NCBI GenBank assembly: GCA_030765065.1
Contig: CM060988.1
Span: forward strand, 200,382,565 to 200,446,564
Length of the DNA: 64,000 nt
Direction of reading: 5' to 3'
Source of the DNA: Deroplatys truncata
Taxonomy: Eukaryota; Arthropoda; Insecta; Mantodea; Mantidae
The notes under the pieces were generated by a model. That model made no database searches. It was not told the origin of the DNA and saw only the letters and a program-made list of their open reading frames with translations. This document shows, piece by piece, positions 5,879-47,800 of the stretch. Each line of letters starts with the position of its first letter. The stretch's first letter is position 1. The position numbers and the translations under genes were made by a program.

Positions 5879-5884
5879 AGGCGA

Positions 5885-6405: not shown

Positions 6406-6436
<31 letters not shown>

Positions 6437-6437: not shown

Positions 6438-6454
6438 AAACACTCTCACAGGCA

Positions 6455-22829: not shown

Positions 22830-23089
22830 TTTCTCTAGGTACCCATTCTTCAACAAACTATTGTTACTAAAGCTTATTCTTCTATCTATTTCATGTTAAT
22901 CAAGATAAGCATTTGCACAAATTGCTGTTATTAAATAAACATCTCCTTATAGGTACAATGGGAATAATGGAATACCATATGTTTGACTATCACCATTAAG
23001 TGATAGTCAAATCTTTTAAGAACAGGTGACTATGCGAGGGCTTTGAAATTTTGTTCTCTTTGCATGATAATGGAAAAAAATAAATAAAT
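22830..23089 (+). repeat. R1 repeat, older copy, left part
   Basis: It contains ttcaacaaactattgtta, ttcatgttaatcaagataag and ctctttgcatgataatgg, and stops in an A-tract (ggaaaaaaataaataaataa). The same copy resumes at 23963. A complete younger R1 sits between. Confidence 0.75.
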
Positions 23090-23962
23090 AATCTGATGTG
23101 TTACATTCACATGGCTTTCTCTCCCTCTTCTGCTTATTAGTGGGTATACAAATTATTCTTACGAAAGTTTAGCTTACCTACTTAATTTTAATCAAGATAA
23201 ACCTTTCCAGAAATAGCTGCATTACACATTTTGTTAATAGATACAAAGGGAATGATAGTCAAATGTTTAGCAACTGGATGCTATATGCTGGCCTTAAAGT
23301 TCCATTCTCTTTCCAGACATTACAAAAAACAACTGAATGTTGACACAGCTTTAAAAGAATCACTAAGTATTGAAAAATTCAAACCACCATTAATAACAGA
23401 TATCTCGGAAATGGCTAATGCCACAAAAAATATTTGAATTAAATTCTGTGTTTCAAAGAGATCTACATTTTTTCTGTAGTGCATTTTTGTCTATCACTTA
23501 ATATTTACCAGTTATACAAGGTTATACAAAATTCCTTCAGAATGAAGAGGACTTCGCAGGCTATTCTCAGAAAATTCAAATATACATTTTATTTGCCATG
23601 TAAATATCTTTAATATATAATATTTTAATAAAAATCATTAGAGCCATTTTTTTAAAATAAAAAATGTTACATGTAATAGGTAAGTTGGGATGGGGGGGAT
23701 TTTCTTGAAAATCTTTGGGTCGTATCTTTGGAAGGTACTGAACCTAAATACTAAGTTTGGTATTTATCCAAACTTCTTGTATTTGAGTTATGATATTCAC
23801 AGACACACATACAAATGCAGACTTTCTTTCTATAAATGCTTTTTTTATGGATTCAGAGGGCCTAAAAAAATGTATTTCCATTGAAATATCAGTATTGAAT
23901 TTTTGTGTGGAATGCAATACCTTCTCTATGTCTTATATATGTGGTACAGAAAGTAAAAAATG
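23090..23962 (+). repeat. R1 repeat, complete, nested in an older R1
   Basis: The head tctgatgtgttacattcac abuts the A-tract of the older copy and the tail ggtacagaaagtaaaaa is followed at once by the older copy's next bases (tgcataccgatttt). This is a clean self-insertion. Confidence 0.8.
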
Positions 23963-24546
23963 CATACCGATTTTACAGCTAAAAAGCATAAAGTATTTGA
24001 CAATTCAAACCAATAATAAAGAATATATTGAAAATGACCAATGCTACAAAAACTTATGTTTGACATGAAATGTGATTTAACAAGATCTACATTTTTTGTG
24101 TAGCAAGTTTTTGTCTTTTTGTTATGGTTTACATGTTATACAAAATTCATTCACAGACTATTCCCAAAAAATTCAAGATTAACATTTTGTCATATAAACA
24201 TCATTCTTAAATATATGGTGTTTTGATCAAAATCTTTGAGCCATTTTTGAGAAAATACAAAATTTTGAAAAATTTTCTATATAAAGGATAGTTTGCTTTG
24301 GGAACATTTTCTTGAAAATCTTTGTGTCACAACTTTGGAGGATACTGAACTTAGACGTCAAGTTTGGTATTTATCATACTTTTTGTTTTGGAGTTAGATC
24401 ACAGACAAACAAAAACCTTTTTCTAAAACTATTTTTTATTCAGGGGGCCTCAAAACATGTATTTCTGGTGAGATCTCATAATCATATTTTTAGGTGAAAT
24501 ACAATACCACTTCTACCTACTGGGTACATGGTAGAGAAAGTAAAAA
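23963..24546 (+). repeat. R1 repeat, older copy, right part
   Basis: It runs from just after the internal A-tract to a proper tail (catggtagagaaagtaaaaa), completing the copy begun at 22830. Confidence 0.75.
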
Positions 24547-25027
24547 AGCAAATAAATTTCTCATTAAATTAATTGAAAATGTGATATCACATTAAGAAAT
24601 TTTTCATTCTTGACTGTGTTCCAAGTGCTACATAACTAGATTCATGCTGCAGCCTGTCTGTTTCATTAGCCTTGCATACTTTACCACTTAATTGCTCTCT
24701 GTTCTTCCCAATTTTTGTATGTCATTCACCTTTAGAACTCATTATGATAATAGAAACTCAAGTTTTCAGTCTATGCTAAAAACATTGCTCAAAGACTGGG
24801 ATAGTTGGAGCTTTTGCAAAACACATCAGAAGCTTTTAATGAACTTTTGTACCTTCTTTGGTCCCGTAGTTATTTAATAATACAGGAACTCCTGACATCA
24901 ATACATAGACAAAACTGGTGAATATGAAGAAGATTCCCCACTCCCAGGCCACCAAGTTAAACATTTTGGAAATAGCACATGGTCTGCAACCATCAAGGAA
25001 TATACTTTTCTCATCAATAAAATGTTT
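24547..25027. other. Intergenic, nothing recognised
   Basis: A+T-rich spacer between R1 copies. No ORF of interest. Confidence 0.4.
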
Positions 25028-25826
25028 TAATGTGTTACATTCACATGACTTTCTCTACCCTCTATCGCTTATTAGTGGGTATATAAACTATTATTACGAA
25101 AGTTTATTTTCCTATCTATTTCAATTTAATTGAGATAAAACTTTCCAGAATGTGCATTACACATTTTGTTGTAGATACAAATGGAATAGCAATATTCAAA
25201 TGTTTTAGAACTGATACTATATGCTGGCCTTAAAATTCCATTCTTTTTCCATGACATCACAAGAAACAACTGAAAATTGACATTAGAACCATTAATAAAG
25301 GATATCTCGGAAATGGTTGATGCCACAAAAAAGGTTATTTGAAATAAATAGTGTTTTTAAAGAGATCTGCATTTTTTGCGCAGTACTTCTTTATCTATCA
25401 GATTGTATAACTTCCTTCAGAATGAAGAGGACTTCACAAGCTATATCTAGAAAATCCAAGATATATATTTTATTGGTCATGTAAATATATTTAATATATG
25501 GTATTTTAATCGAAATCATTACAGCCATTTTTCAGAAAATCAAAAATACTCAAAAAATGTTCCATGTAAAGGGTAGTTTGCAGTTGGGAGATTTTTTCGA
25601 AAATCATGTTACATCTTTGGAAGATATTAAACTTAAATATTAAGTTTGGTATTTACGCGACATTTTGTTTTTGAGTTATGCTGTTCACAGAACACACATA
25701 GAAATTTTTCTAAATATACTATTTTTTTTTTTTTGTTTGATAAAGGGAGCCTCAAAACATGTAACTTTGGATAGAGTGCAATACCTTGTCTACCTGCTAT
25801 GTATGTGGTAAAGAAAGTAGAAATCT
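25028..25826 (+). repeat. R1 repeat, near full length, diverged
   Basis: The head tgtgttacattcacatgac and a tail near tgtggtaaagaaagtag are both present. The internal order is the same as the reference copy. Confidence 0.75.
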
Positions 25827-26689
25827 AAGATGTGTTACTGGAAGAATTCTCACCATCGGCAGAATTTGATGATGGGGAGAGTCATCTCATCTTATGCATC
25901 TTGGATTTTTTAAATTCAACGTATGTGTAGCATATGTGTCTACATGTTAAAATATTTTATAAATTCATAATACTTCATTATGCTCCTCTCCATTAATAAG
26001 TATATATATTGGCTGAATAGTTTCTAATTCTGTAGAATTAGAAATGGACCACTCTGAGGTTTTAATGTTAACTCTAGCACACAATTGCAGTATTTGAATA
26101 AAATGTCAAAATACATATTACTGTGATGAGGCAAGGTGTCCACTTCATGGTTAGCAGACATGTCCTTCAGTGCTAGCTGGCAAATGATTGGTTGGGGAGA
26201 GAGACAGGGGAAGTGCTCCCTGCTGAGGAAGCATCTAGTAGAGGACTAACTGAGAATAATGGCAAAACTTCCAAAACCTGACCCCCCCCCCCCTCAGCAG
26301 CATACAAAGTTTCTTGAAGGCACCTGTGGGTATAAAGAGCAGTAGCTTTTTGACATGATGAGGGAAGCAAGGGAGAGAGGAGTCCTGTGATCAACACTCT
26401 GGTGAGCGATTGTGGAAGATAGGAAGGAATCCTATGTTCAACACACTAGTGAGTGATTGAAGAGAAATGCAACAATGGAGACACTCTTGAACCTGACTCC
26501 ATTGCATTTAGTTGTAATGATGGAGGCCACTCTATACACTGCAACACACTAAGCAACTGAGAATTCCTGAAATAGATTCAGACTTGCTAAGAATTAGGGA
26601 ATACATAGGAGATGCATCTTTAGAAATGCACTCAGACTATATAATTCATATTAAACACTTCATAAAGAACTTCAGGTCATTACTGATCC
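25827..26689. other. Intergenic, no gene; poly-C tract
   Basis: A run of C at 26281-26292 is the only marked feature. A 74-codon minus ORF here has no support. Confidence 0.35.
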
Positions 26690-27560
26690 TGAATCAATGA
26701 ATGAATAAAACGCTGGAAGCTCATATAAAAACTTTGATGTGGTTTATAGGCAGCTCCAAGGATGGCTCAGGAACAGGATCCAGAGTATATGGCATAAGGC
26801 CAAGGTGCAAGAAGTTATTTTTCCCCCTTGGGTGAATATGCTACTGTTTTTAAAACAGAAGTTTATTCTATTATTCAATGCACACATGAGGAGAGCTTAC
26901 ACTAGTAAACATATCCTTATCTTCTCAGACAGCCAGGCTGCACTTAAGGCTCTAAGTAGTCATAAGGTAATGTCAGGACTGGCTTTAAACTGCTTAAGCA
27001 TGCTCACAAGCTTAACAGAACAGAATGAAGTTCAACTCATTTGAGTACCAAGTCAAAGTGGCATAGAGGGAAATGAAAAAGATGATGAACTCTCAAGACA
27101 AGGAGCAGCTTCATAATTTATTGGGCCAGAACCGGCTCTAGGAATATCTCAATGTTTAGTAAGAAAGGCTATTAAGAACTGGTCCAAAGTCGATCATAAA
27201 ACCTGGCTTAAAACTCCAGGAAACAAACATGGTAAACTATTTATTAGAAAATTATGTAAGAAAATAGCTGAAAGCTTACATAAATGTAAAGACGTCAGCT
27301 GAGAACAATTATAGCATTTCTCAGGACATGCTTCTGTGAAAAAGCATCTTAACACAATGGGAGTGTTTCAGGGTAACTTAGATTGCAGATTGTGCAAGAA
27401 AGAAACTGAAACAGCTCAGCACATTGTATGCTCCTGTGAGGCTTTGGCTTTTGGGAAAATGTTTTTAGAACCAAAAGAGTTTGAAACATATCGGTTATGA
27501 GACTGTATTCCTTGGTAAAGGGTACAGGTATAATGAATTGCTTTAAAACATAACAGGTAG
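26690..27560 (+). pseudogene. LINE fragment with RNase H domain (I/Jockey-type)
   Basis: Plus-strand pieces over several frames: SKDGSGTGSRVYG (RNase H start, family TDGSK), FPLGEYATVFKTEVYS (Glu region), LIFSDSQAALKALSSHK (the conserved D-S-Q-A-A-L-K block), then NEVQLI and a decayed W-V-P-G-H region. The C-terminal zinc-knuckle-like LDCRLCKKETETAQHIVC follows at 27375-27430. This order (RNase H then CxxC...H..C) is typical of I-clade and related insect LINEs. Stops at several places make it non-functional. The RT is missing upstream. Confidence 0.85.
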
Positions 27561-27899
27561 CACAATAAGCCCAAGGCTGAAGTGTGTCTGGAGCAATGAT
27601 GGGAATCTGTATCGAACAAGACAAGATTGAAGAAAAAAAGTCTGCTTCACAAGCGGTTTATTGCAAAATTACATGCAAGGAAAAACTGACGAAGACACAT
27701 TATTCTATCATGATAAACAGGTTCTGATGCCTTTAGTTGGACCAGTTATTCATATACCTGAATTGTTCCTCTGTGAAGAATGTCTGGATATTCACGATCT
27801 CAGAGAAAAGATTTGGACGAGTTACACCTGAGATGCTTCATCATACCTGAGAGATACTAGCCATGAAGTGAACAAACTTCTCAATATTCTAGAATATAT

Positions 27900-28560
27900 T
27901 TACAGATTACACAAATATACATACAGAGCCTTTGTTTGATACCTGGCTGGCTTTATGGAAATTGTCTTGGCACTGGGAAGTACGCTGTTTGTCAGCAGAG
28001 TCGGATATTCATAGCCCCTTGAATTCAAGTGCATAGATTTCTTATGCAAATTATAACTGCAATAACCACATACCTTCATCACAGATGATGTTGGAAATGA
28101 TGTCCACATCTTTCACACCTTTTAACAAAATTTGTATTAACATGGCCACAGAGCAATCATTAACCATAGCCAATACCCAGTTGTACAAATTAACTCCACC
28201 CACACTATTACGTTGTTTCAATTCCTGAACTACAGATATCTTATAGACTTTTGATTTTAAAGGTTTACTGACATTTCAAGCCGAGGTTTGCAAAATTAAG
28301 GATTCCTATGCAAGATTTCTCAAAGTTTTTTTTGGACTTTGTTCTAACATTTTTCCGATGTCATCAAGCTTTTCCTCTGTATGAACACAGCAATTTACTT
28401 TTGATTTCTTATCAATAGATCCCATTTCCCTAAATCTATTCACAATATTATGAACCATTTCTGTGTGAGGCACACAAACAGCAGGGAATCTTCTCACTTC
28501 TCTACAAGAGTTTGTTGTCACATAGAAATTCTGTGTGCAGGCATTTTAAGGTGAGGCCAC
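27900..28560 (-). pseudogene. DDE-type transposase relic, N-terminal half
   Basis: The minus strand reads PAVCVPHTEMVHNIVNRFRE, then KLDDIGKMLEQSPKKTLRNL and KVYKISVVQELKQRNSVGG. This matches the helix-turn-helix and linker of the arthropod transposase family also present at 41418-42760 (there LDQSPKKSLRRLSQETGYSY and PYRITIVHQLQEPD). The catalytic half has decayed. Confidence 0.75.
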
Positions 28561-28789
28561 AGACCGGCTATATGCATAGCATACTGTACTGAATGACCTC
28601 GGTACTTTTCCAATGTGCAATGGTGGCACATGGCTCATTCAAGGTTATTTTATCAGCTGTGTTCGTGCTGTAACGAGAGTTGTGCATCTCAAAGGTGAAA
28701 GTTTATTCAAGACATCTGAGTTGCGTGTTAATGTCCTGTTATTAGTTCATTACAATGTCTGCTAACAAATTCATGCTGAATGAGTTTTT

Positions 28790-28990
28790 ATGTGCGATAC
28801 ACATGTAAAAACCGAATCATGAAGACAGATGTGTAGACAATTTCAGGTATTCCAGTTCCAGGCAGAGAAACTGTTAGATGTCTGGTTAATAAGTTTAAGA
28901 CAATGGGATCGCTAAACCTAAGAAGTGAAAACAAAATATTTTAATGGAGGAAAAAATTATGAAATTGGTGCATCTATTTGTGGGGAAGCC
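28790..28990 (+). pseudogene. DDE-type transposase N-terminal fragment
   Basis: The plus-strand reading SGIPVPGRETVRCLVNKFKT, then MGSLN, is the same helix-turn-helix block as at 28400-28520 but on the opposite strand. The two form a head-to-head pair separated by about 230 bp. Confidence 0.6.
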
Positions 28991-29075
28991 TGAAAAAAAG
29001 GTTTATAGGAACAATTCCCACACCATATACAAACTTAAGGAAAATATAAATACAGAAATTATGAACATTATGCAA

Positions 29076-29310
29076 GAATTTATGCATGTGTATGGAAATG
29101 TCAGGTATTGATGTAGATGTCACATTTATAACAAGGTCAGTACTTGTTATAGTGCAGCTTAATATCACTCGTGAGTAAGAAATGCAGGAGTTACGCATGT
29201 GTATGGAAATGTCAGGTATTGATGTAGATGTCACATTTATAACAAGGTCAGTACTTGTTATAGTGCAGCTTACTATCACTCGTGAGTAAGAAACGCAGGA
29301 GTTATGGAAC
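29076..29310. repeat. Tandem duplication, 2 copies of 111 bp
   Basis: catgtgtatggaaatgtcag, gtagatgtcacatttataac and cttgttatagtgcagctta recur at a spacing of 111 bp with few differences. The duplicated unit gives a repeated peptide (SRVIVSCTITSTDLVINVTS) on the minus strand, but there is no independent evidence that it is expressed. Confidence 0.9.
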
Positions 29311-29859
29311 AAAAAAACTCTCAGTGTGCACAGCACATATACGCACGATCCAAGGCCCACCATAAAACAATTGCATTGCTTTATGGACGTTTTGGCATTG
29401 TGACAGCACTGACACATATGACACTAAAATACGTGGTCTCACAACATATCAACCTCTGAACACCAGACTGATTAGCCAGCACATGGAGAGGGAACAGAAA
29501 CAGTGCAGGGCAAGCAATTCCCTGTAAGTTTTATAGCTTTCAAAACGTATCACCCTGTCTGTATTTGCAAGAGAGTTTTTACGACTTTCTTTATAGCATA
29601 TTACATTACTTTTACATTGAGCCTCTGGTTCCTGTCTGTTTCACATGGACTAGCAATTTTCAGCAATTTTTATTTTTTTAAAGAAATAAACAACTTACAT
29701 AACAACACATCTGTTAAAATAACTGACTATTGTACTATTCTCCGCTAAAACTAGTTTATGAGTTATGAATGTTTGGATTTTTTAAGAAATGTATGAAAAC
29801 TGAATGTTTCAGCTAATTCAGTTGCTTTTCACTTTTGGACTCAAAACCATGAAATAGAC

Positions 29860-30110
29860 ACCAATATCCAGTTGCTGAAACCAGCCCAAAAACCCAGAGC
29901 TTGAAGTATGGGAGAAGATTTACATAAACAAGTTTGAAAACCGCATCATGAATTTTGATTTGCCAGAAGCAAACAACTCTCTATTTAGCTTCATCCACCA
30001 GAGGACACCCCAGGCTTTCAACAATACAACTTGAGAGTTCATCTGACAGTCAACACGCAGCTGATGATGTGAACTCATACTCACGATACTTGTTCTACAA
30101 AATAAATAGT
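29860..30110 (+). pseudogene. Penelope-like element C-terminal tail
   Basis: The plus strand reads LEVWEKIYINKFENRIMNFD, then LPEANNSLFSFIHQRTPQAF. The W-E-K-I-x-I-x-K...MNFD/EIP pattern is the one following the GIY-YIG domain in the other PLE pieces here. A hammerhead-like motif follows at 30061-30088. Confidence 0.65.
30061..30088 (+). ncRNA. Hammerhead-like core motif downstream of a PLE tail
   Basis: ctgatga, then a possible stem (gtga...tcac), then gata in place of gaaa. Its position after the PLE coding tail matches the copies at 58326 and 59726. It is probably decayed. Confidence 0.3.
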
Positions 30111-30261
30111 TGAGTGAAGCTAGTAAGAGTGTTTAGGTTGACTCCACTTTCATCAAGTGTATTTTATTAATTGCTTCACTGTATGTGATTCCACTACTTT
30201 TTGGATAATTTTAAAATGTTGTAGCTTTTATTTAGATAATACTAGTTATAATTAAACATAA

Positions 30262-30800
30262 TAACAAAATTTGATATGTTCCATTCACATGACCTTCTCT
30301 AAGTACTATCATTTATTTTTATTTCTGTTTTACAAACTGTTCTTATAAAAGCTTATTTTTCTATCTACTTCATGTTGAGACAAACATTTGCAGAAATAAT
30401 TTTGTTGCTTTTGATAAGAGAGAGATATAGAAGCGAGGTGATCAGGTCACTATAAGCTGGCTTTGGAATTCCATTCTCTTTGCACGACATCACAAAAAAC
30501 AAACAAATGTGCCTTAGCACTAAAAAAAAAAATGTGAGGAAAGTATTGGAACATTTAAAGCAATAGCAACAAATATCTTGAAAAGTGATTAATGACATAT
30601 AAATGGTACGTTTGAATGAGATCTATATCTTTTGCATAATAGTTTTTACTATCTTATAGTTCTCTAAATTCATTGAGAAGGACTTCATAGCCCTATCACA
30701 GAATATTCAATAATGCAGTCATGCAAATATGTTAACTATACAATATTATAATAAATATCATTTGAGCTATTTCTTAGAAAATCAAAACTGAAGAACAATT
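30262..30800 (+). repeat. R1 repeat, left two thirds, diverged
   Basis: The head tgatatgttccattcacatg, the block acttcatgttgagacaaac and attccattctctttgca follow the R1 order. The tail is replaced by a C/T-rich run (30820-30930). Confidence 0.65.
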
Positions 30801-31048
30801 TTCCACGTACATACCTATCTCTCCCTCCCATCTCTTTCCATCACTATCTGTCTCTATCTCTCCTTCTATCTTCCCTCTTTCCATAGCTATCTCCCTTCCC
30901 CATCAATCCCTCCCTCTCTTGTTACCATGAATATACATTTCAACACAGTTTCCACATATTGAAACCTTGTTTAATAATGAAACAATTCTCAGGTAAAAAT
31001 ATATTGTGATTTAACATAGTGAGGATCGAAAATCACTTTTTATATGAA

Positions 31049-32357
31049 TACTACCAAGAGAGCCAATGAACTAAGGACCAGCTGCACAGTGTTTTTTTCA
31101 CTGGGCATGCGGACGCATAATTCCATGCTACTGGCTTGGCTTTGCTCTACTCTGGCTCTGCAGTTAACAGTGATATGCTGTAGTTCAGTTATTACAAGTT
31201 ATTTATTATTTTGTACTGTATTTAGTCACAAAGTATATTACGGCTCAGTATATGTTTTCTACTGTGCAGCGTGTATTTATTTATGATTTGTATGTGTTAA
31301 CTCAGTCAGCTCATCCTATGAAAACACCATTTGCAGAAAGATTTTCAGGTGTAAAAGTTCCAGGTCGTCGTACAACAATCCACACACTTTATAATAAATT
31401 TCACGCCACAGAAAGTGTTTGTTCAGTCTAAGAAACCTAAAAGACAGTGTGAGGTTCTTACTGAAGAAACATTAGATGACATTAGTCATCGTTTGGAGAC
31501 TTCCCCTCAAAAATCACATAGGCATCTTTCACAACAGTCACATGGCTCTGTGTGAAGAGCTACTAAATTGTTGAAGTTAAAACCAAATAAAATAGCTGTG
31601 GCACATGATCTTCAAACAGGTCATCCTGCAAATAGGCACACATTTTGTAAGTGGAATCTCAATAGTGTATACAATGGTGAACTAGACCCATATTTAACAG
31701 ACGAGGCTTGGTTCCACCTTTATGAATATCTGTGTACACAAAATAATTGTTACTGGAGCTCTAACAAACCTAATATTGTCTATGAATTACCCCTCCATTA
31801 CGAAAAAATTGTTGTATGGTGCACCATGAGCGGAGAAAGAATTATAGGGCCAACTTTTTTGAGTCAGTTGGCACTCCTACATACATGAATACCATTTTGA
31901 GCCCAACTTTTACAGAATTAACACACATTGAGCATGATTTTGCCTTTTCTCAACAACACTCTGCCACAGCTCATACTGCCAATATTTTGATGAGGACAAC
32001 TGAAAAAGTGTTTGAGAAGAGCATTATTAGCAGAGATTTGTGTGTAAGACAAACCCACACACCCTGGAAGAATTAAAACAAAATATCCACCAGAAATTGC
32101 CAGCAGTTCTCAACATGAACTACAGCGAGTGATGGTTAGTTTCCTAAAGAGGTGCCAGAAATGTATGGACAACGACGGTGGCCAGTTTCAGCATCTCCTT
32201 TCATAAAGTTAGTAAGTAAAGCCTTTAAAAGTAGTTTTAAAAATGTGGTATGGTTGCATCCACCCATTCTATGATAGCTACAGATGGCAAGTGCCAACTG
32301 CACAAACAGGAAAAACAGTGTGTAAGCAGTTTTTAGCTCATTGGCTCTCCAGGTATA
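31049..32357 (+). mobile_element. DDE-type DNA transposon with ~55-bp TIRs, broken transposase
   Basis: The terminal inverted repeats share agagccaatgaactaa (31058) and ttagctcattggctct (32335), with homology extending through the cacactgttttt region. Inside, the plus strand encodes a decayed transposase: HRKCLFSLRNLK, LETSPQKSHRHLSQQ-like, LQTGHPANRHTFCKWNLNS, DEAWFHLYEYLCTQNN (catalytic DE) and VVWCTMSGERIIGPTF. Near the end is a degenerate HSATAHTANI with its Asp lost. It is the same family as 41418-42760, but with different TIR sequence and many stops. Confidence 0.8.
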
Positions 32358-32554
32358 ATATACACTAACTTTTAATTGAAACAGAAAGTCATGTGAATAC
32401 ATCACATCAGATATTTTTTAAACAAATATCTATTTCAACAAACTTCTATATCCCAATGTTACCTTCATAACTAACTGCATACATAATTTCTTTTTCCTCC
32501 CTCTTTCTTCTTTAGTTTCAATTTTCTTCATGAGAAGGCTAAAAACAAAAGCTT

Positions 32555-32559
32555 TATGC

Positions 32560-32642
<83 letters not shown>
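32555..32642. repeat. (AAT)n microsatellite
   Basis: About 29 perfect units. It abuts the repeat at 32643-32960 and is likely its 3' tail read on the minus strand as (ATT)n. Confidence 0.97.
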
Positions 32643-32643
<1 letters not shown>

Positions 32644-32960
32644 CCTGTGGTGCTACAGCCCACAAAGAGGCTTGACCTGCCAACCCGACTGCTGCTCTCA
32701 CGCCCACGTAGCACAGCAGAAGTGGCTGATCATCCAACCAATGTAGGGAAGTGATGTGGCCAGCATTGCACATCCCCAAGACAGAATGTTGGCCTTCGTG
32801 GCCGGGATTGCTGCCTGTCGCAGCCTCTCACTTTCCTCATGATGCTTAGTGGGCACCAGTCCTATACCCGGGACATGAAATCTGCACTCCCATGGGTGAG
32901 ATTGAAGCCGGGCAAATTGTGTGGCCGGGAACCAGAACTCCACGCCACAGTGCAGGACAT
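32643..32960 (-). repeat. SINE-like insect repeat with (ATT)n tail
   Basis: This relatively G+C-rich unit starts cctgtggtgctacagccc next to the AAT run and continues tgacctgccaacccga, tggctgatcatccaacc and atgatgcttagtgggcacc. The combination of cctgtggtgctacagccca with an adjacent AAT run resembles a repeat common in insect genomes. I cannot name it and only one copy is here. Confidence 0.45.
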
Positions 32961-33069
32961 TTATGGAAGAATAAGTTGTAGAAAACATATGAATATTTAA
33001 TAAAACTTACCATGTAAATGCTAGAAGGTGAAAAATGAAAATAAATTAAGTATCAACAATAATCATATT

Positions 33070-33466: not shown

Positions 33467-35323
33467 CTGCAGTAAAATACCAACATTAATAATCTCAAAC
33501 AGACATCAGAAGGGAATGTATGTTAACAGTGACATAGGCTCAGTTTCTCAATTTAAGCTCAAGCTGAGACTTAGGCTACAATGGAGGTTTACAGTGTGCA
33601 GTTGAAGCAATAATCCGACTTTATATGTGGCTTGGCTTAAGCTGTACTCAACTGTGGCTTAAGCTAACGAGTCAATGTGCTATCTGAAGAAAAAAAATCA
33701 AATTCAGTTTTGGAAAGGTAGAATCAGATGACTGAAAAATTCAATGCCATAGCCGGAATTTGAACCACGGATCTCCCGGTCTCTGTCCGGTTGCTCTAAC
33801 CACTGAGCTACCATGGCAACATGCCGGCACGCCATTAAATTCTCCAGCTGACTCACATTTTTCCCGGTAAACCACAAGGAGATCTCAAATTGCATTGAGA
33901 TGTCATACCCCAATGGCAAATTACATTCTTTGTAAGTACTTAAGTCCCGGGCTTTTAGTTTCAACCACTATTAGATCAATTAATGGAATTAATTGTTCTT
34001 TCACACAAGCCTTGTGTTGGACAGGGTGTGAGTCAGCTGGAGAATTTAATGGCGTGCCAGCATGTTGCCATGGTAGCTCAGTGGTTAGAGCAACCGGACG
34101 GAGACCGGGAGATCCGTGGTTCAAATCCCGGCTGTGGCATTGAATTTTACAGTCATCTGATTCTACCTTTCCAACCCTGTCCAACACAAGGCTTGTGTGA
34201 AAGAACAATTAATTCCATAAATTGAGTTTTATTTATGGACACTCTTTAACTACTATACTTGTTAGCGTCCCATTTTATATTGGGCGTGAAAGAGTGGTAA
34301 TTTTGCTCAAGGCCTCTTTATCAGGCTTGAGGTTCTTTTATGTGCCATAAATCTACAAGACAGGACCACCGGCTTTACTTCCCTTCCAAAGGAAGCCATG
34401 CCAAGGATTTTTATACCTGAAAAAAATTCATCGCCCTCCACTGGGTTTGAACCCACGATCTAGGGATCTAGCATGGTAACCACTACACCACAGAGGACGA
34501 CTATCTGAAGTAGACAATATTAGTGATTGAGTAATGCAAATTATTTTAACCCACATGCTCAAAAGAAGACGTTCTAGTATGTTTAGAATGCCTCCAAACC
34601 ACTTTCATGTATGCAATGACCCAAGAGATTTTGATTAAGTTAACAGTCGGCAATCTTGGTACCAGAAATTATTGATGCTGCAATTAAACATAGAAACAAA
34701 ACATAACTTTAAATTTATACTTCATACCTTTATCATATACACTGTTTCACTCATTGCCATCACATCTACATATTGCTTTATATTTCAGTAACAAAACCCT
34801 CTCATCAGAAACAATGCTTCTCTTAACATTGACGCGTTACAATCGATTTCTTTCACGTGTAAAAATCCTTAGCATGGCTTCCTTCAGAAGGAAGTATAGC
34901 CAGTGGTCCTGTGTCATAGATTTACAGCACGTAATGAGCCTCAAGCTTGATAAAGAGGCCTCTGAGCAAAATTCCCGGTCTTTCACGTCCAATATAAAAT
35001 GGGATGCTAACAAGTATATACCCCCGCCGCTGTAACGTTGCACTTGATAGCTAGCTTTTAAGTTGGTACACTCGCAAAAAAACAGATGAAAAGCTTCAAC
35101 CGTTTGACTTCCTAAGCCAATCACAAGGCAGCATTCCGGATGGTCGATGACAACGCGGAACCGGAACTGGAATTGGCTCTGTTGCCGGATGTAACTATTC
35201 CCAACCACGTGCTTCAGTTTGTGAATCTCTAGCATGAGCGCCGAGTTGTTCATTGTTATTTATATTTGTGGTTATTGTTTGATAGTTTTTTATTGTTCGT
35301 TTATACATATATTTATATTTATC

Positions 35324-35371
<48 letters not shown>

Positions 35372-38300
35372 CATTCATATTATTTATTTAAACAAAACTT
35401 AAGTGCAACAATGTCTGAAAAACGACGCCGATCGCTGAGTGATGATTCAAGAAAAGTGAAATCCTTTGCGCCGAGGTGTGCCACTTAATAGTCAGGCATT
35501 GGAACTATTAAGGAGAACCCGGGAATTCTTTGAACAGGAAAAGGAGTATGTGAAGCTTCATGGCAATCCCTCTATTCTTGCTGATAAAGCCGTACAAGGA
35601 ACTGCAGCAGCTCTTGGACTAAGCATGAGAACTGTTATTCACAAGGCTACGGTGGATGCGGCTTCGTGGAAGAAGAAAGTAGATCATGTGAGTAAGCTAA
35701 TACGAAAAGCACAAGAAATAGACAAGGAATTATTAGTGACTGTGAACCATTGATGATATGCCTTGATGATGATGACAATGATGCTTCCGACAACGGGGAT
35801 TTGAATGGAATTGAGCTATTGCAGTTTTAAATGGGTGAGTGAAAATAACTTTGCTATAGCATGCTTATAATTTGTTTTATTTCTTCTCATTGTAGCAGGA
35901 AGTTTGTATTATTTTGTTTCTATATTCTCAAAAGTAAGTAATTTATTCTACATACGCTGCAATGTTTATACAGAGTTATTTTCAATTAACAATAATAATA
36001 CGAAATAGTTATTATTCATTGATGTTCGCTACTTAGTACACTTTTTGTATGTGGCTTAGACACGATAGAAACGAGAACAATCAGCTGTTGTTGTTTACTA
36101 GCCACTCTGGCAACCACAATGCAGCCAACCTTCGCGAAGCCACACGAACTGTCAAGTGCAAAGATACAGCGGCGGGGGTATAGTAGTTAAAGAGTGTCCA
36201 TAAATAAAACTCAATTTAGTTTAATTTTTTAACACTCAAGTTATATGCAAGCGAAAGCATGCTAATTGCAACTGGAGAGTTTTCCGGCATCTCAGAACTT
36301 ACAGCATGTAGAACTATCAAAATTGTTTCACACCATAGTAATCCATCCTTCGAATCGCAGTTTTTCCCTTCTTTTGGTTTTTATTACTCCATAGTAATTC
36401 GTCCGACTGCTTGCACTCTATTATACGCTTATGCTGCTTCACAATTTGCTGACTTGTTGAGAAGTAAAGTTTCACATTCTGACTCTCATTTTAACTTTAT
36501 GTTGCTGGATAACATACAAAACCTTGTTTTAGGAACAGCACTATCATAAACAAACTATGGGAACTCACTCAATGCGCAAGTGATGCCAACTTTACTGTTC
36601 CGTGGTGTTGTTCACGTCAGTAAAGTCGAACCTGGTTGCCCTCCTGTGAAATTTGCAAAGTTTAAACCACAAATTACTAAAGCTTTGGCTTAAGCTTAAA
36701 CTGTGAAACCAGCCCTTAGTGCAGAACAATCTTAAGGACCATTTTTATTCTGTTGTGCAGTCTTATTAACTTTAAGTTTCTCTTTAATTTGATATTTATT
36801 TTTATCATTGCAGACACAATACTTAAATTTTAAAATTACTTTTAAAAGTTGGCACTGCATCTGCCATTTTGTACTGTGAATCACTTCACAGGGAAAACTA
36901 TAACTTCTAAACACTTTGGAGGAGAGCCCATCTTTCAGGGTAAGTTCTGTTCTACACATTGGTACTACTGTTAAGTATGGCAGTTTCTATTGTTCAAGTC
37001 ATGTGGATTCTTTCTTTGCAAATATGAAGGCAGTCTCAGAAGTACCCGACCTGACGTATATTTAGCAGTTATTGTTTCAAACAAATGACTATGGTAGAAA
37101 GTGCCAACCTTATAAAGCTTAAGTTTGATGACGATGCTATATTGTTTAGTAATTGTTTGGCAGCATTAATAGTGAACTCTCCCAGCGAATTTGTAAACAT
37201 GGATAAAACTGGTCATTGTTATGTGATACAATACTTTCATTTGAAAGGTCTTAGTCCAATTAATATTAAAGCTGAGCTAGATTCTACCCTGGGGGAGTCT
37301 GCTCCTTCGTTTACAACAGTAAAATATTGGTGGCAGAGTTTAAAAGCTGCCAAGACGAACATCGCAGTGGTCGACCAATTGAGGTGATCACGCCAGAAAT
37401 TGTGAAGGAAATCCACAAAATGGTATTGGATGACCATCGACTGAAAGTGCGCGAGCTAGCAGACATCGCAGGCATTTCAAAAAGTGCTGTACATCACACA
37501 CTAACTGAAAATTTAGACATGAGAAAGCTGTGCGCAAGATGGGTACCACATTTACTCACAATAGAACAAAAGCAGTGTCGTCAGGATGTTTCACTCGATG
37601 TTTGGCGATACTTTGCTGCAATAAAGCCAAGTTTTTGTGTCGATTCATAACCATGGATGAAACATGGGTCCATCACTTCACACCTGAGAAGCAGGAACAG
37701 TCAAAACAGTGGATTGAAAGGGGAGAATCGGCTCCAAAGAAGGCAAAGACAGTTCCATCCGCAGGCATGGTCATGGCGTCATTTTTTTGCGATGCGCATG
37801 GGATAATTTTCATTGATTATCTTCAAAAAGAAAAAGCAATCAATGGTGAGTATTATGCAAACTTATTGCAGGGTTTGAATGATGAAATCAAGCAAAAACG
37901 GCTGCATTTAGCAAAAAAAGAGAGTTCTGTTTCATCAAGACAACGCACTAGTTCACACATCCATTATCGCCATGGCCAAAATCAATGAGTTAAAGTTTGA
38001 AATGCTTCCTCCTGCATCCTATTTACAAGACTTAGCCACTTCTGATTATTTTCTGTTTCCAAAGTCAAAGAAATGGCTTGGTGGCAACAGATTTGCCAAC
38101 AATGAAGAGCTGGAGTTTGCAGCTGATGGCTATTTTGCAGAACTCCACAGTTCTCACTATAAAGAGAGTATCAAAGCTATTGAACATTGCTGGGAAAAGT
38201 GTATCCATATGTAAGGAGACTATGTAGAGAAATAAAAATGTTTTTCTCCCAAAATTTTTGTGTTTTCTTTGTTAGATCGGGTACTTCTGGGACAGCTGTC

Positions 38301-41300
38301 GTATATGTGAGTTTGCTTTCTCTAATTTTGCTTTGAACAGCTTTTTTCTGTGAATGACATTTTCTGGTATAAATGACCTGCGTTCTCAGAAAGTATTGAT
38401 GATTAGGATTATAAAAGCAATCCACTTCAGTGTTAATAACATAGTAACTTATTTTTTACAAAACATAATTGCTGATAAATTTTAATCAAAAGATGCTATA
38501 ACTCAGAAGACATGCATCTACATCTTGTAAAAATTTCAGGCTGAGCTGTATAACACAATTGTTTTTCTTGCTGCTGACACATAAGAGTTTCCCCTTACAA
38601 TAACTGAGCTCAAAGGTACCTGCACATTCTGCCATTATGCAGCATTTACATAGGATATACAGAAACTCACACACTTTCAGTTGTTCAATGGGTAACATTG
38701 CTCCCAAAGCGTCCAGTATCCACATAATCATATCACCCCTATGCCAGGAAATCAGCGAAGATTAGGAGAGCATTGATAACTCTTAACATTAGCAATGGAA
38801 CAGAAGTGGGATAGAAATGGAAGTAATCGCAACAAAAGTGGAAGTGGAGGGAAACCGAACCGGTTCTAAGGAAACAGAAGTGAAACTGAAAAGTTTCCAT
38901 AGAGGAAAGAAGATATCATGTGATTACCGAGCAAATGAAAATAAAGCATAAAAGGGATGTACCATAATCAGAAAGGAGTATTGAGTACAGAATTCATTTT
39001 CCTTCAGTTTAAGCTGCCCCATTCTGTTCCAGCTATTAATTACTTGAGCATCCACATTTAAAATAGCATTGTATCAATAATTTGCAAAACTTAGTTACCA
39101 GTAATATCAGATTATTAAAGAATACCATTTGTCAATCACATGTAACTGTATAATGCAACTTTGTATGTGTTGAAGAAGCATACATTAAAAAATATATTTA
39201 CACTTTAAGGTTATCTACCCATTGCGCAGGTTATGAATTAATAATTATTTCAGTTTGTCATACTACCCATGCTTCTATAATGGTTATTTGTTAAATAAAC
39301 ATATTACAAGCTACATTGATATTTTAAGGTTATGTACCTATTGCGCAGGTTATGAATTAATAATTATTCCAATTCACCATTTTGAGGATAATGTTATTTC
39401 CACCTTCCTAAACCTTATGAAAACCTTGTATAGCTCATACCAATTTAATACATCATACGTAATGATGCTTATGCTGCAAGTCGCTATATTAAGTTTGCAT
39501 ATGTTGCCTGACATGCCATTACGTGGCCTTGAACGCTTTGGAAGCAATATTACCCAGTCATGGTAATGCACTTCAGCTGAGGTATTAATCTGCAGTCATG
39601 CACCAAGCAGTAAACCATCTGCTCATGACTTCTGCCACTAACCTCCCACTCATTTTGGAATACTGTCGCCTGAATATACAAATGAGTCAATGTCACCATA
39701 TTATAATTTGATGAATTTTCTTGTTGTTTTTATTGTTTTAAAACCAAGGAACTAAGTTTTATTGCCATATGCTGTATGCCATTTTATGGCCCACCCAAAA
39801 CCACTTCCAGTCCTTGAATCGACCACCAGAAAAGTAATAATTTCAGAGAGACTAGTATCTATGATGGACAAGAGATATCAGTGTAACACTCAGTACTGGA
39901 AATTAAAACTGAGTTTTTATTTATGGTCGCTCTTTAATGACTATGGTCCTTAGCGTCCCATTCTATACTGGGCGTGAAAGTCTGGAAATGTTGCTCAGAG
40001 GCCTCTATCAGGCTTGAGGTACTTTTACGTGCCGTAAATCTACGACACGGGACCACCGGTTTTACTTCCCTTCCGAAGGAAGCCATACTAAGGACTTTTA
40101 CACCCAAAAAAAATCCATTGCCTTCTGCCAGATTTGAAGACACAACCTCGGGAACTAGAAGCTAGCATGGTACCCCTAGACCATGGAGGCTGCACTAATG
40201 GCGGTGGTATCACTTCTCCTCCCTCAAGTCGCTGATGGGTGTAGCCAGTAAAGCGAGGAACAGAGTCTTTCACTGGGCACACAAAGAGAAACAACCCTTC
40301 AGAGCTATGATGCACCAAGGGACTACGTGACTTACGAGCATCCAGCATTTTTCGGACTTTGTAAAATTTTCAGCAGTAAGTAATTCAAAATTTCACATTT
40401 AGTCCGCTCATGTCATGTAGTGTGTGGCTTTATTGAATCTTATTCCATGTAAAATTCTTTTCTAAAAAAGTAACTATTTGAAGTTAGAATTATGTGAGGA
40501 AGAAGGAAGTGTTGGTACCTCAGTTTGCAGGGCACCCAGGCCTGGCAGCTCTTGTTATCCCTTCCCCTTTATCTTAATTACCCCCTTACTCCCTCTATCT
40601 TCTTCTCTTGTACTCCTTACTTTCCTCGCCCATTTTTCTTTTGCTTTCTGTAAAAATTCACCTATACTTCTTTCTTTCTTCTTTCCCCATTAACATTTTT
40701 ATAGCAACAATTTTCCCCTCTGTTTTCTTCCCATTTTTCCTACCAAACCTTTTTCTCCATAATGCCAACTCCTTACATTCCGTCATGTAATGTGTTATAC
40801 TTTCTTTCTCACTGCACATTTCCATATTCGTTTACTTTTACCTCTTATCCATCTTAGAAAGATTGTTCCTATTCTCATCCAAGATATACATTCTTTTTCT
40901 TGTCCAGTAATCTATATATGGTTCTTGTCCTCAGTTTCTGTATTTGTTTATAAAATTGTAATGATTTCTTGTTTTCTAAATTTCCCTATATCTCCTGCCT
41001 TTCTATGTCTTGTATTCTGTTTTTTACCAGTTTACCTACATCACTTTCATTCCTTTCTTCTGACTTCCATATGCCTCGCATTCCTTAATTCTTCCTATCC
41101 TTGCCCACCAACTGCTCATACTCTCTAAGCTATTTTGTTGCTTCATACATAACTTTAAGATTTCTCCCTCTTCTTTAATCAAACATCTATATCAACATTT
41201 TATTATTCTCCCTATTATTATTCCTTTCCTTCTTGCTTTTCCTAGTTCTACTAAAGCTACTTAATTCACCAGTTAGGGAAATTGGGTAAATAAGATTTCA

Positions 41301-44300
41301 CTCCTGGGTATCTATACATAATGCTTCAAAATGATAGCAATGTATCGCTATAATATGGTAACAGAGCAAGAAAACCTACTTTATGGTACAAAATGCTAGC
41401 ACAGCATTTAACATTATATAGGCTGATTTATGAATAACTGACACATTTCTTTCTTTAATTATTCTGTTCAAAATTCACTCAATGCCCCAATTTGAGCACC
41501 AAATTAAGCAGAATGTTCTGGAGTTTTGATTGCCTATCACTAGAGGGTAGATGTTCGTATTTTATTTATAATTGTTAGTTTTATTGTCGGCAACTGTTTT
41601 TGAGATTTTGTTCTAGTCAACGTGTAAATGGAGTACACATTAAATGAATGACTCTTCCTCGTAAAGCAATACTGGGTTACGAATTCAATTACAGGTACTC
41701 AAAGGGCATACCAGAGAGAATTTGGTGTTCAGAATCCTCCCCAAAGAAACACAAAACTGGGACTGGTAAATAAATTGGAAACAACAGAATCTCTGGTGAG
41801 TGAAAAAGGCAAAACTCGTTCATCTAGGCTTCCCACGGTTGACATAAGAGCACGACTGGATCAGTCACCCAAAAAATCATTAAGACGTTTGTCGCAGGAG
41901 ACAGGGTACAGCTACTCAATGTGTCAGAGAGCTGTGAAAAGTGCAGGCCTAAAGCCGTATAGGATTACGATTGTCCATCAGTTACAGGAACCAGATAAGG
42001 ATAGACGACTGAATTATTGTCGTTGCTTTCAGGTGTTCATTGTACAAACTCCTGCCACATTGTCCATCACATGGTTCACAGAGGAAACATGGTTCCATTT
42101 ATCCGGCTATGTGAACTCAAATAACTCACGCTATTGGGCCAGTGAAAATCTACATGTTATTCATAAAGCACCTATGCACCCGGTTAAAATTGGAGTTTGG
42201 TGCGCAATATCCGCACAGAGAATAGTGGGACCAATTTTTTTTAAAACAACGTGAACACTGCAGAATACCGACGAATTGTCATGAGTTTGCTGAGCAACTA
42301 GACGATGTAGAGCTGGGTCAAGGATATTTTCAGCAAGACGGCGCTACATGCCATATATCAAATAAATCCATGGCATTAATTGCAAGTTTCTTTGATGACC
42401 GGATAATTTTCAAGAACTTGTGGCTACCGAGATCTCCGGATTTGACATCACCAGACTTCTTTCATTGGGGTTACTTAAAAGACAGGGTTTATGCCACACA
42501 TCCCCAGACATTGGACAATCTGAAGCACAACATTACACAGGAGATTCAAGCTATTAGCAACAGAGTCCTCCGAGTGGCCAGTAACATGGAACGACGTGTT
42601 GAGTTGTGCCTTATGCAGGATGGAGGACATTTTCAACATTTGCTATAGAGGTAAATAACCTCCCAAAATTCTTCTGCATTTCAGGTATTGTCGCTAGCAT
42701 AACTCGTTTTGAAACAATTGAAGAAATAAATGTGTCAGTTCTTCATAAATTACCCTGTATAATACACAACAGCTGTTATGCATCCATCAACCAATAAGAG
42801 ATGCACATGCATTTGTTTACATGCAAATTAAAGTGCATAGGGAGTATTAAATTTTAAATACATTATAAGTTTTAAAAATTTCTCTGTTTCCCACTAAGAA
42901 TAAATCAAGACCAGACCTGTTGAAATTGTTGGTTCTGTTGCTGCTGTTGTGAGGCATGAGTTGGCGGAGGGCCTTGTGCACCTGCACCAGCTCGTCCATA
43001 TGGTGGCGCTGGTTGAGGCTGACCCTGTCCTTGCTGTCCCATGGGACCTCCCATTGTCGTCATTGTAACATTTGGTGCCTGCAACCAACAAATATTTAAT
43101 TTACTCTGGTTCTATGAGGTACACACTTGCTTGTCACCAAGCACAAGAGTCTGCAAGAAGCCTACCAGTGTAACAACAACTATTATTACTTTTTCCACTG
43201 CTTACTTACAGTATCGTAATCCACCGAAACCACAAGCTTTGGGGCCCACTGAATCCAAAGAAAAAGATTTTAGGTCATGCATGTCTCAACAGCATAACTC
43301 AAAAACAAAATTTCAGGTTGAAAAAAGAAAAGACAGACAGAAAGAAATCCTGATATGTTACATTCACTTTCATGTAACAACTTTCACATGACTCTCTACC
43401 CATTCTTCAACAAACTATTCTTACAGAAGCTTATTCTTTTATTTACTTTATGTTAATCGAGATAAACGTTTGCAGAAATGGTTTTATTACTTATTTCCTT
43501 GCAGGTATAATGGGAATAGGGAAACATAGTAGGCTTAAGCGATGGCCAAATCTTTTAAGAGCTGGTCACTATATGATGGCTTTGAAATTCCATTCTCTTT
43601 GCATGACCAGAAGAAAAAAATCTGATGTGTTACACTCACATGACTTTCTCTACTCTTGTACAAACTATTTTTGCAAACATTTATTCTCCATATGCTTCAT
43701 GTTAATTGAGATGTTAATCTTATTGCTAATTTTCTTGTAAATGCAAGGGGAATATGGTAGGTTTTAAGCGATAGTCAAATTTTAAAGAACTGGTTGCTAT
43801 GTGGCGCATTCCATTCTCTTTGCCTTACCAGGACAAAAAAAAAATGAATACCGAATTTGAGAAGAAGTGTAAGAATTGGAAAATTTAAGGGAATAACATG
43901 CAATATCTCGAAAATGGTTCACTCAACAACAAAAATGTATATGACATAAATTGTGTATTTTACATGATCTACATTTTTTGTGTAGTAAAATTTTGTCTAT
44001 CTCTTATGGTTTACCAGTTATGCAAAAGTCATTCACAATGAAGAATACTTTTGGAGACATTCCCAGAAAATTTGAGATATACATTTCATTTGTCATGAAA
44101 ATATCTTAAACATATGATATTTTAATCAAAATCATTAGAGCCATTTTTGAGAAAATTCAAATTTTTGAAAAATGTTCCATGTAAAGGATAGTCTGGGGTG
44201 GGGAGATTTTCTTGAAAACCTTCGAGTCGCATCTCTGGAAGATACTGAACCTAAATATCAAGTTTGGTGCTTGTGCGACTGTTCGTTTCTGAGTTATGCT

Positions 44301-44863
44301 GTTCACAGACACACACACGGACATGTTTCCAAATATACTTTTTTGGATTCAGGGGGTCTTAAAACATATATTTCCGGTGAAATCTCGATATTGAATTTTT
44401 GAGTGAAATACAATATTTCCCCTACTTACTATACGTAGTAGAGAAAGTAAAAAAATGAATGACTTCCAATTTGAGAAATGTATAAGTATTTGAAAATTCA
44501 AACCAATAACAAGGAATATCTTGAAAATGGTTAACTCAACAAAAAAATATATTTAATATAAATTGTGTGCTTTAATGGAGATGTACATTTTTTGTTTAGT
44601 AAGATTTTGTCTATCTCTTAAAATTTACCAGTTATACAAAAGTCATTCAGAATGAAGAGGACTTCACAGGCTGCTTCCAGAAAATTCAAGATGTATGTTT
44701 TATTTGTCATGAAAATATCTTAAACACATGGTGTTTTAAACAAAACAGTTAAAGCCTTTTTTAAGAAAATTAAGAATTTCAAAAATTGTTGCATGTAAAG
44801 GGTAGTTAAGGGCTTGGAAGATTTTCTTCAAAATCTTCTTGTCACATCCTTGGAAGGTCCTGA

Positions 44864-44897
<34 letters not shown>

Positions 44898-47800
44898 GCA
44901 CACGCCCACGCACACACACACGCACACAAACACACAACATGCCCGCACGCACTCTCTCTCTCCCCCTCTCTCTCTCCCCCTCCCTCCCCCCCTCTCTCTC
45001 CCTCCCTCCCTCTCTCTCATATACATGCAAGCACACATACATACTGTAAGTACATAGGAAGGAAGGAAGACATACCTTGATATTTTACGTTCAGAATCTT
45101 CCATGCATGCCACACAAAGATTTTCAAGAAAATCCTCCAGCCCAAACTACCCTTGACATGGAAAAATGTTCATTATTTTCTCAAAAATCTGATGTGTTAC
45201 ACTCACAAGACTTTCTCTAATCTTGTACAAACTATTTTTACAAACACTTATTCTTGATATGCTTCATGTTAATCGAGATGTTAATCTTATTGCTAATTTT
45301 CTTGTAGATGCAAGGGGAATTGGTAGGCTTTAAGCGATAGTCAAATATTTTAAGAGCTGGTTGCTATGTGGAGTATTCCATTCTCTTTGTATTACCAGGA
45401 CAAAAAAAATGAATAACGAATTTGAGAAAAAGTGTAAGTATTGGAAAATTTAAGGAATAACAAGCAATATCTTGAAAATGGTTCACTCAACAAAAAAAAT
45501 GTATATGACATAAATTGTGTATTTTAATGCGATCTACATTTTTTGTGTAGTAAAATTTTGTCTATCTCTTATGGTTTACCAGTTATGCAAAAGTCGTTCA
45601 CAATGAAGAACACTTTTGGAGACATTCCCAGAAAATTCGAGATATACATTTCATTTGTCATGGAAATATCTTAAACATATGATATTTTAATCAAAATCAT
45701 TACAGCCATTTTTGAGAAAATTCAAATTTTCGAAAAATCTTCCATGTAAAGGGTAATCTGGGGTGGGGGGATTTTCTTGTAAACCTTCGTGTCGCATCTC
45801 TGGAAGATACTGAACCTAGATACCAAGTTTGGTGTTAATCCGACTGTTCCTTTCTGAGTTATGCTGTTCACAGACACACACATGGACCTGTTTCCAAAAA
45901 TGCTTTTTTTGGATTCAGGGGGTCTCAAAACATGTATTTCTGGTGAAATCTCGGTATTGAATTTTTGGGTGGAATGCAATACCTACCCTACTTACTATAC
46001 GTAGTAGGGAAAGTAAAAATGCCTTTAACAATTATATTTAAAATACTGTATGTTTAAGATATTTCCATGACAAAATGCATATCTTGAATTTTCTGTAAAT
46101 GCCTGTGAAGTCCAATTCATTCTGAATGACTTTTGTATAACTGGTAAACCATAAGAGATAGACAAAATCTTACTACAGAAAAAATGTATATCTCATTAAA
46201 ACACACACAGAATCTTTTGTGACACTAACCATTTCCAAGATTCTTTCTTATTGGTTTGAATTTTCAAATACTTATACTTTTTTTCATGTAGTAAGTAATT
46301 ATTAATTTTTTCTTGTGATCGTGCAAAGAGCCTGGAATTACAAAGCCATCACATAACAATCCCCTTTTTAAAAATGTGATTATACATAAAAGGAAAACAT
46401 TAATGAAGGTTTACCTCGATTATCAAGACAAGCAACATGAAGTAGGGTGGGAGATTTTCTTGAAAGTCTACATGTTGCATCCTTGGAAGAGTTGAATTTA
46501 AACCATCCCCATCCCAACACCATTATCCATCATCCCCATCCCCAACCCCCTTATCCCAACTCAATCTTCTAACCTTCCCCAATCCCATTATCCATCATCC
46601 CCAAACCTAACCTTCCCCAACCCCCTTATCCCAACTCAATCTTCCCCAACCCCATTATCCACCATCCCCATCATTCCCATCCCAAACTCAATCTTCCCCA
46701 ACCCCATTATCCACCATCCCCATCATTCCCATCCCAAACTCAATCTTCCCCAACCCCATTATCCACCATCCCCATCATTCCCATCCCAAACTCAATCTTC
46801 CCCAACCCCATTATCCACCATCCACATCATTCCTATCCCCAACACAATATTCCCCAACCCCATTATCCACCATCCACATCATTCCTATCCCCAACACAAT
46901 ATTCCCCAACCCCATTATCCACCATCCACATCATTCCTATCCCCAACACAATATTCCCCAACCCCATTATCCACCATCCACATCATTCCTATCCCCAACA
47001 CAATATTCCCCAACCCCATTATCCCAACTCAATCTTCCCCAACCCCATTATCCACCATCCACATCATTCCTATCCCCAACACAATATTCCCCAACCCCAT
47101 TATCCACCATCCACATCATTCCTATCCCCAGCACAATATTCCCCAACCCCATTATCCCAACTCAATCTTCCCCAACCCCATTATCCACCATCCACATCAT
47201 TCCTATCCCCAACACAATATTCCCCAACCCCATTATCCCAACTCAATCTTCCCCAACCCATTATCCACCACCCCCATCATTCCCATCCCCAACACAATCT
47301 TCCCCAACCCCATTGTCCTCCATGGTCTAAGGGTACCATGCTAGTCTCTAATTCCCAAGGTTGCGGGTTCAAATGCAGCTGAGGGCGCTGGATTTTTTTT
47401 ACGGGCATAAAAATCCTTAGCATGGCTTCCTTCAGAAGGGAAGTAAAGTTCGTGATCCCGTGTTTGCCGTTAAAGAACCTCAAGTCTGATAAAGAGGCTT
47501 CTGAGCAAACTTTCTGGTCCTTCACGCCCAGTATAGAATGGGATGCTAAGAACCATACTAGTTAAAGATTGTCCAAAAATAAAACTCAATTTTTTCTATC
47601 ATCCCCTTCCCCATTCAGACTTTTTTCTAAAACTACTCTTTTTGGAATCAGAGAACCTCAAAACATATATTTTCTGTGAAATTTTCATACTGAATTACTA
47701 TTGTAAGTATAGGCAAAGTAAAAATTAATCTTTTTGCACTTCATATAAAATCTCCAAGAAAATCAACACAAAATCCGAATGAAATGAAATGCTACCTGGA

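Follow-up and report, generated by a model that had tools for sequence, protein, structure and literature searches.

The stretch of DNA analyzed here, referred to as the window, covers 64,000 nucleotides of the Deroplatys truncata genome (Mantodea; assembly GCA_030765065.1, contig CM060988.1, positions 200,382,565 to 200,446,564) and carries multiple copies of an unnamed repeat of about 0.85 kb, here called R1. R1-derived DNA accounts for 15 intervals, which amount to 8,702 bp or 13.6% of the window. An earlier, sequence-only reading of this DNA had described the R1 copies, two of them nested in other copies at the same internal A-tract and a third complete copy lying within an R1 of the opposite strand. 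BLAST of three inner copies against the window recovers the copies. In an alignment in which the outer copies had been rejoined, the nests at 23090-23962 and 43618-44452 share one internal A/T tract and lie at an identical edge of it. A third nest is likewise present, at 45185-46018, within CTCAAAAA|TG of an R1 copy in the opposite orientation. The pieces of the three nests are given below, the strand being the 5' to 3' direction of the R1 element here and in all later rows.

22830..23089, minus strand: 3' part of outer copy o1
23090..23962, minus strand: complete copy c1, of the older subfamily, nested in o1
23963..24547, minus strand: 5' part of outer copy o1
43345..43617, minus strand: 3' part of outer copy o2
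43618..44452, minus strand: complete copy c2, nested in o2, with edges that are fuzzy in T-runs
43621..43651, minus strand: 3' inverted repeat, palindrome, and CAGA end of c2, as an example
43835..43844, minus strand: internal T-tract of c2, unoccupied (A10 on the plus strand), the site that was hit in o1 and o2
44421..44448, minus strand: 5' inverted repeat and hairpin of c2, as an example
44453..44870, minus strand: 5' part of outer copy o2, continuing into an A-run and a microsatellite
45076..45184, plus strand: left part of outer copy o3
45185..46018, minus strand: complete copy c3, nested in the oppositely oriented o3
45402..45409, minus strand: internal T-tract of c3, unoccupied (A8 on the plus strand)
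46019..46383, plus strand: right part of outer copy o3

In a tree of nine rows, the inner copy c1 pairs with c6, and c2 with c3, c4, and c5, both groupings at 100/100. As c1 and c2 hence belong to different subfamilies, the two same-site nests are separate insertions and not one duplicated nest.

R1 is almost certainly a HINE, i.e., a non-autonomous Helentron (rolling-circle, Helitron2-type), that is moved by a Helentron of the same genome. The ends of the repeat are one part of the evidence. HINE/DINE-1 and Helitron2 elements are described as having a 5' inverted repeat near the end that pairs with its neighbour, a 3' inverted repeat just ahead of a palindrome, and T-rich targets (PMC4067079, PMC7492417, PMC3627910, PMC3630058, PMC2374699). 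The subterminal inverted repeats (subTIRs) of HINEs are given as about 11-15 bp, one near the 5' end and the other about 20-60 bp from the 3' end. In the element direction, R1 follows the plan TTTTT-ACTTTCTCTACT-ACGTATAGTA-AGTAGGGGAAGT ... AGTAGAGAAAGT-CATGTGAGTGTAACACAT-CAGA-TTTT. This direction is the reverse of the one assumed in the sequence-only reading, whose 5' end is the 3' end of the element. The inverted, foldable termini noted there correspond to 12-nt subTIRs, ACTTTCTCTACT/AGTAGAGAAAGT, of which the first lies directly past the 5' T-run and the second 22 nt ahead of the 3' T-run, together with a 5' hairpin and a 3' palindrome. The hairpin is formed by the 5' subTIR and the adjoining inverted repeat, with 6/500 shuffles reaching the same folding energy. 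When nine 5' ends are aligned, 79.3% of the cells are paired, a level reached by 2/500 shuffles, with 39-56% in slid versions; two of the nine rows (f6k and f47k) are poorly aligned over the 3' arm. The covariation score is 0.202 versus 0.150 (matched by 3/500 shuffles), and the count of cells changed on both sides, with 24/500 shuffles as good, is less telling. At the other end, the 3' subTIR is followed by the palindrome and CAGA, with a perfect 5-bp stem in nine of the 12 window ends. A GT/CTGT-rich stretch lies near the 5' end, as GTCY-rich or (CCGT)n(CTGT)n stretches do in known elements (PMC3630058, PMC2374699).

When both strands of the window were searched for the termini, one terminus was found in 12 copies at up to 10 mismatches, set against 11 (about 0.55 per window) in 20 random windows from an order-1 Markov model, and the other in four copies at up to 8 mismatches, set against four in 20 random windows (0.2 per window). 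A further terminus, close to 43349, escapes the terminus pattern because of an insert some 20 bases long.

The insertion sites are runs of T in the orientation of the element, which bears out the A-tract targeting claimed for R1 on the other strand. TTTT immediately follows the 3' end in 6/12 window ends (background 1.6%, P = 1e-8), and a run of at least four T's begins within 12 bases of the 3' end in all 12 (background 13%). R1 is thus inserted in T-rich DNA, like HINEs. Occupied internal tracts retain 4-6 T's on the 5' side (8 in one case) and 6-9 on the 3' side, and unoccupied tracts have a mode of 8. The terminal A's, from which the sequence-only reading took younger copies to start, are not divisible between host and element.

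The other part of the evidence is an autonomous partner. R1 had been thought to borrow its machinery, and a search for a partner sharing both ends had been proposed; such a partner is present in the same genome (4,289,915,091 bases, 818 contigs), in six fetched copies. A PF14214 profile search of the genome gave at least 152 matches (150 of 291 candidates scored), including a set whose scores are nearly identical and whose open frames extend to about 2,500 aa, and no match in 14 control genomes. From these, the 20-kb neighbourhoods of six long-frame matches and the 10-kb neighbourhoods of eight others were fetched. Each of the six 20-kb neighbourhoods contains an element of 9.8-11.0 kb that opens with the R1 5' end and closes with the R1 3' end, with a long forward open reading frame (ORF) of 2343-2441 aa in all six. 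Compared with window copy c5, the partner copies C13, C3, and C1b share the first ~730 nt at 85-88% identity and the last 33 nt at 94%. Over their final 5 kb, the six copies are 99.1-99.8% identical. As a control, three loci of the higher-scoring PF14214 lineage (L019-L021) together gave a single short R1 match at E <= 1e-8; they belong to a second Helitron_like_N lineage of the same genome, with almost no R1 in these 10-kb loci.

The long frame encodes a Rep-helicase-endonuclease protein, with the domains scanned in pieces in one copy, C13. The Pfam matches of this protein include Helitron_like_N (4e-28), PIF1 (8.7e-29), DUF6570, and a Herpes_teg_N-like stretch, and its last 251 aa on their own match Exo_endo_phos_2 at 1.9e-6 (28.2 bits, cut-off 27.4). 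Its helicase matches Helraiser 7lcc at 1.1e-25. The Rep motif VEFQMRGSPHEH has the serine that is given as diagnostic for Helentrons (PMC4067079). By its domain content and this motif rule, the partner classifies as a Helentron. No such protein was found among the 20 window ORFs of at least 120 aa that were scanned (26 listed). Two further observations concern the partner. The Herpes_teg_N-like stretch (6.3e-11) lies in the N-terminal part of the protein (L015, 6875-7700), and a 63-bp tandem repeat is found inside the ORF, e.g., in C5 (L009+L010) at about 7085-8386, where BLAST matches are shifted by multiples of 63.

Two other readings of R1 itself were considered. On the strand used in the sequence-only reading, A's lie past one end of R1 and ahead of the other, and a T-only duplication is indistinguishable from element-borne T's; R1 could in this way resemble a retroposon similar to a short interspersed element (SINE), one that enters A-tracts through target-primed reverse transcription and has an A-tail and a target duplication made only of A's. 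A conserved hairpin, inverted-repeat ends, and termini common to an element with a Rep-helicase gene are not SINE features, and the tRNA matches in the window all lie outside R1, which makes such an origin highly improbable. The same orientation would also suit a non-autonomous canonical Helitron (5'-TC, A|T target, 3' hairpin), as A's are followed by TC at the 5' end in that direction in most copies, and A|T is the site of the nested insertions. Nevertheless, CTRR is absent from both ends of the aligned copies, the long ORF of the partner runs in the opposite direction and carries the Helentron endonuclease and a GSPHEH motif, and terminal inverted repeats with a 5' hairpin are described as Helitron2/Helentron features (PMC3627910). 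A canonical Helitron is hence hardly credible.

Some results weigh against R1 being a HINE with this Helentron as its source of machinery. Neither transposition nor a circle was observed, and any short T-only target duplication is hidden by the T-run. For hairpin pairs changed on both sides, 54/500 shuffles are as good, and for further pair types 92/500, which is weak; the energy of the 3' palindrome is by itself unremarkable (34/500 shuffles). Exo_endo_phos_2 is not listed for the longer 1366-aa piece of C13 at E <= 0.01. No RPA forward ORF of at least 250 aa lies outside the Rep-helicase gene in the six copies; such an ORF is described for mite elements (PMC4067079). Past its last 33 nt, the 3' module of R1 has no match to the 3' end of the partner, and R1 is hence no simple deletion product of the Helentron copies seen. 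As the 3' alignment is limited to these ~33 terminal nt, short of what groups a HINE and its partner in one subfamily, R1 would be of the same family as the partner by its subTIR and of another subfamily. Because R1 has HINE-type ends and a Helentron partner sharing those ends, it is a new family, with its Helentron, of a kind already known. A literature search found no published description of the family, and of 18 full-text papers containing at least one of four short words of the R1 ends, none of the 15 listed concerns transposons by its title. The exact pattern of the R1 end had no match in viral contigs, and a distant BLAST of R1 had none in plasmids.

By the model of the family, Rep would nick at the 5' end of the element, a strand would be copied or peeled off up to the first 3' end, and the intermediate would be joined into a run of T's. 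Both R1 and the Helentron carry a T-tract about 610 nt from the 5' end as well as terminal T-runs, and therefore copies land in copies. The part of R1 up to the internal T-tract (609 nt) is here called P5, and the remainder (217 nt) P3. Five of the six autonomous copies are flanked immediately by P5 on the upstream side and by P3 on the downstream side, and so lie exactly in the internal T-tract of an R1; a P5 is also found upstream of the sixth, C4, but the DNA downstream of it is unrelated. C1b is a three-layer nest, P5 P5 [Helentron] P3 P3. In the 10-kb loci, the Helentron-type 3' end of L027 is followed by the tract and P3 and that of L028 by other DNA, so that 6/8 Helentron-type 3' ends in all are followed by the tract and P3.

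Extra 5' ends are found in C4, C8, C13, and C1b. C4 consists of [P5 + Helentron], closes at the Helentron's own 3' end, and lies directly after the 3' end of another R1, and both C8 and C13 have the arrangement P5 P5 [Helentron] P3. In Fusarium FoHeli elements, self-insertion that gives several 5' ends and one 3' end has been reported and explained (PMC5148889). A later mobilization from the outer 5' end to the first 3' end would likewise give composites with stacked 5' ends, and this route, the same as in the FoHeli model (PMC5148889), may account for C4, C8, and C13. Alternatively, C8 and C13 could have lost their outer P3 halves.

Whether the internal tract is preferred is a separate matter. 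The self-preference suggested in the sequence-only reading is not shown by the window, where R1 supplies 26% of the A/T runs of at least 5 and three of 12 insertions in R1 are therefore expected (P = 0.64). One internal tract is favoured in the wider sample, which is of small size and in part non-independent. This sample comprises 51 3' ends from the window and 14 neighbourhoods, with the 3.5-kb loci L001-L008, some of which overlap, left out, and the ends are not independent. Twelve ends are followed by the tract and P3 (11 by BLAST class, and window 23092, which BLAST placed at R1 651-683, by alignment), seven lead into the start of another R1 or lie close to it, 27 continue into non-R1 DNA, and five into R1 elsewhere, three of the last being copies of one insertion inside a Helentron. 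With a loose tract pattern, 12/51 gives P = 9e-8, 6e-4, and 0.13 for runs of at least 5, 6, and 7, respectively. Judged by 5' junctions, the nesting tract is occupied in 13/47 recognizable copies, as against 0/20 for a control tract (p = 0.007), and by 3' junctions in 10/44 copies as against 0/20 (p = 0.024). The control is a second T-run in P5, about 90 nt away (mode 7 versus 8), intact in 20/20 recognizable copies; independence of the copies is assumed in these tests, and each of the two tracts has its own recognition pattern. The host P5s of C4, C8, C13, and C1b are 98.4-99.4% alike and cluster at 98/85 (bootstrap not fully settled), and hence the true support for a preference is weaker.

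These data suit three explanations to different degrees. Tract length alone may quite well lie behind the same-site nesting, the tract being simply among the longest T-runs in a common repeat, since the 12/51 ends are unremarkable for runs of at least 7 and the window by itself is without self-preference. This explanation does not sit easily with the low P values for runs of at least 5 and 6, nor with the near-equal tract that is intact some 90 nt away. It is possible, although doubtful, that the family has its own preferred landing site, an internal T-tract of HINE and Helentron used far more than equal nearby T-runs, so that self-insertion would be a regular part of the life cycle, adding a complete 5' end per round and building multi-ended composites or arrays. 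Nests at the internal tract may also move as composites and so be over-represented. That they are all one old nested unit copied many times, and not repeated targeting, is rather unlikely. The likeness of the four host 5' halves suggests that some nests may have moved together. On the other hand, the inner copies c1 and c2 of the window are in different subfamilies, the C5 and C3 hosts are distinct from the other four and from each other (91.6-93.1% identity), and between C8 and C13 the divergence is 4.9% in the host 3' halves, compared with only 0.16% in the last 5 kb of their bodies.

The window contains the following further R1 copies and remnants.

1..217, plus strand: R1 3' part
5684..6568, minus strand: R1 remnant interrupted by an inverted-repeat element, with a 5' end at 6553-6568
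7991..9370, minus strand: R1 remnant split by an unrelated insertion (about 8190-9218)
12499..13361, plus strand: complete copy c4
15717..16600, minus strand: complete copy c5, the nearest to the autonomous Helentron among c1, c3, and c5
25025..25825, minus strand: copy c6, of the older subfamily with c1
30270..30809, minus strand: old R1 remnant in which a 3' end is present
47618..47724, minus strand: R1 5'-end remnant

The inverted-repeat element at 5887-6413 in one of these remnants belongs to a family, about 71-83% alike, with other members at 34224-34499, 39906-40189, and 47315-47593. The insertion at 8190-9218 has a partial relative at 53217-53720 (77%). A 119-bp tandem array of 13.8 copies (9397-11040) starts about 27 bases past the end of an R1 remnant, and the next R1 match after it is c4 at 12499. 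Two outward-facing R1-like 3' ends, about 82 bases apart, lie at 19279-19422 and are possibly a fold-back remnant. Among features apart from R1 are a 465-bp inverted repeat at 33710-34174 (about 80% between arms) with a tRNA-like gene on each arm, namely tRNA-Ser(GGA) at 34066-34140 (plus strand) and an Rfam tRNA match at 33745-33817 (minus strand), and a 606-bp palindrome at 58777-59382, about 88% identical to its own reverse complement. Matches to the Transposase_1 and DDE_1 domains were also found.

An abundant repeat without a name is here matched with an autonomous partner that has an open frame and appears to be recent, in a genome of 4.29 Gb. The order of insertion can be read from the layered nests of R1 and Helentron, and the self-insertion route to composite Helitrons, for which the argument has so far come from several Fusarium elements (PMC5148889), is opened to a genome-wide count.

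R1 is similar to the HINE/DINE-1 (INE-1) elements described from mite, Drosophila, and oyster in being without coding capacity and in having subTIRs within their 11-15 bp range, a partial inverted repeat beside the 5' subTIR, a 3' palindrome, and T-rich targets, with no proven target duplication in those descriptions or in R1. Its GT/CTGT-rich stretch resembles, by description only, their GTCY-like microsatellite. Unlike them, R1 has no central satellite array in the complete copies of the window, its internal T-tract is repeatedly occupied by its own kind, and its subTIR sequence differs from those given in PMC2374699. With other Helentrons the partner has in common a single ORF that combines Rep, PIF1, and, at the C-terminus, an Exo_endo_phos_2 match, as well as the GSPHxH motif and ends that recur in a non-autonomous element; it differs in the extra N-terminal Herpes_teg_N-like stretch, in having no RPA ORF of at least 250 aa, and in the 63-bp tandem repeat in the ORF region. 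Self-insertion with several 5' ends and one 3' end is likewise described for Helitron2 elements of the Fusarium FoHeli type (PMC5148889). The duplicated 5' pieces of FoHeli are given as typically shorter than 200 bp (PMC5148889), whereas those found here are about 610 nt and end at one fixed T-tract, and, set against the FoHeli composites, the nest of C1b reaches three layers.

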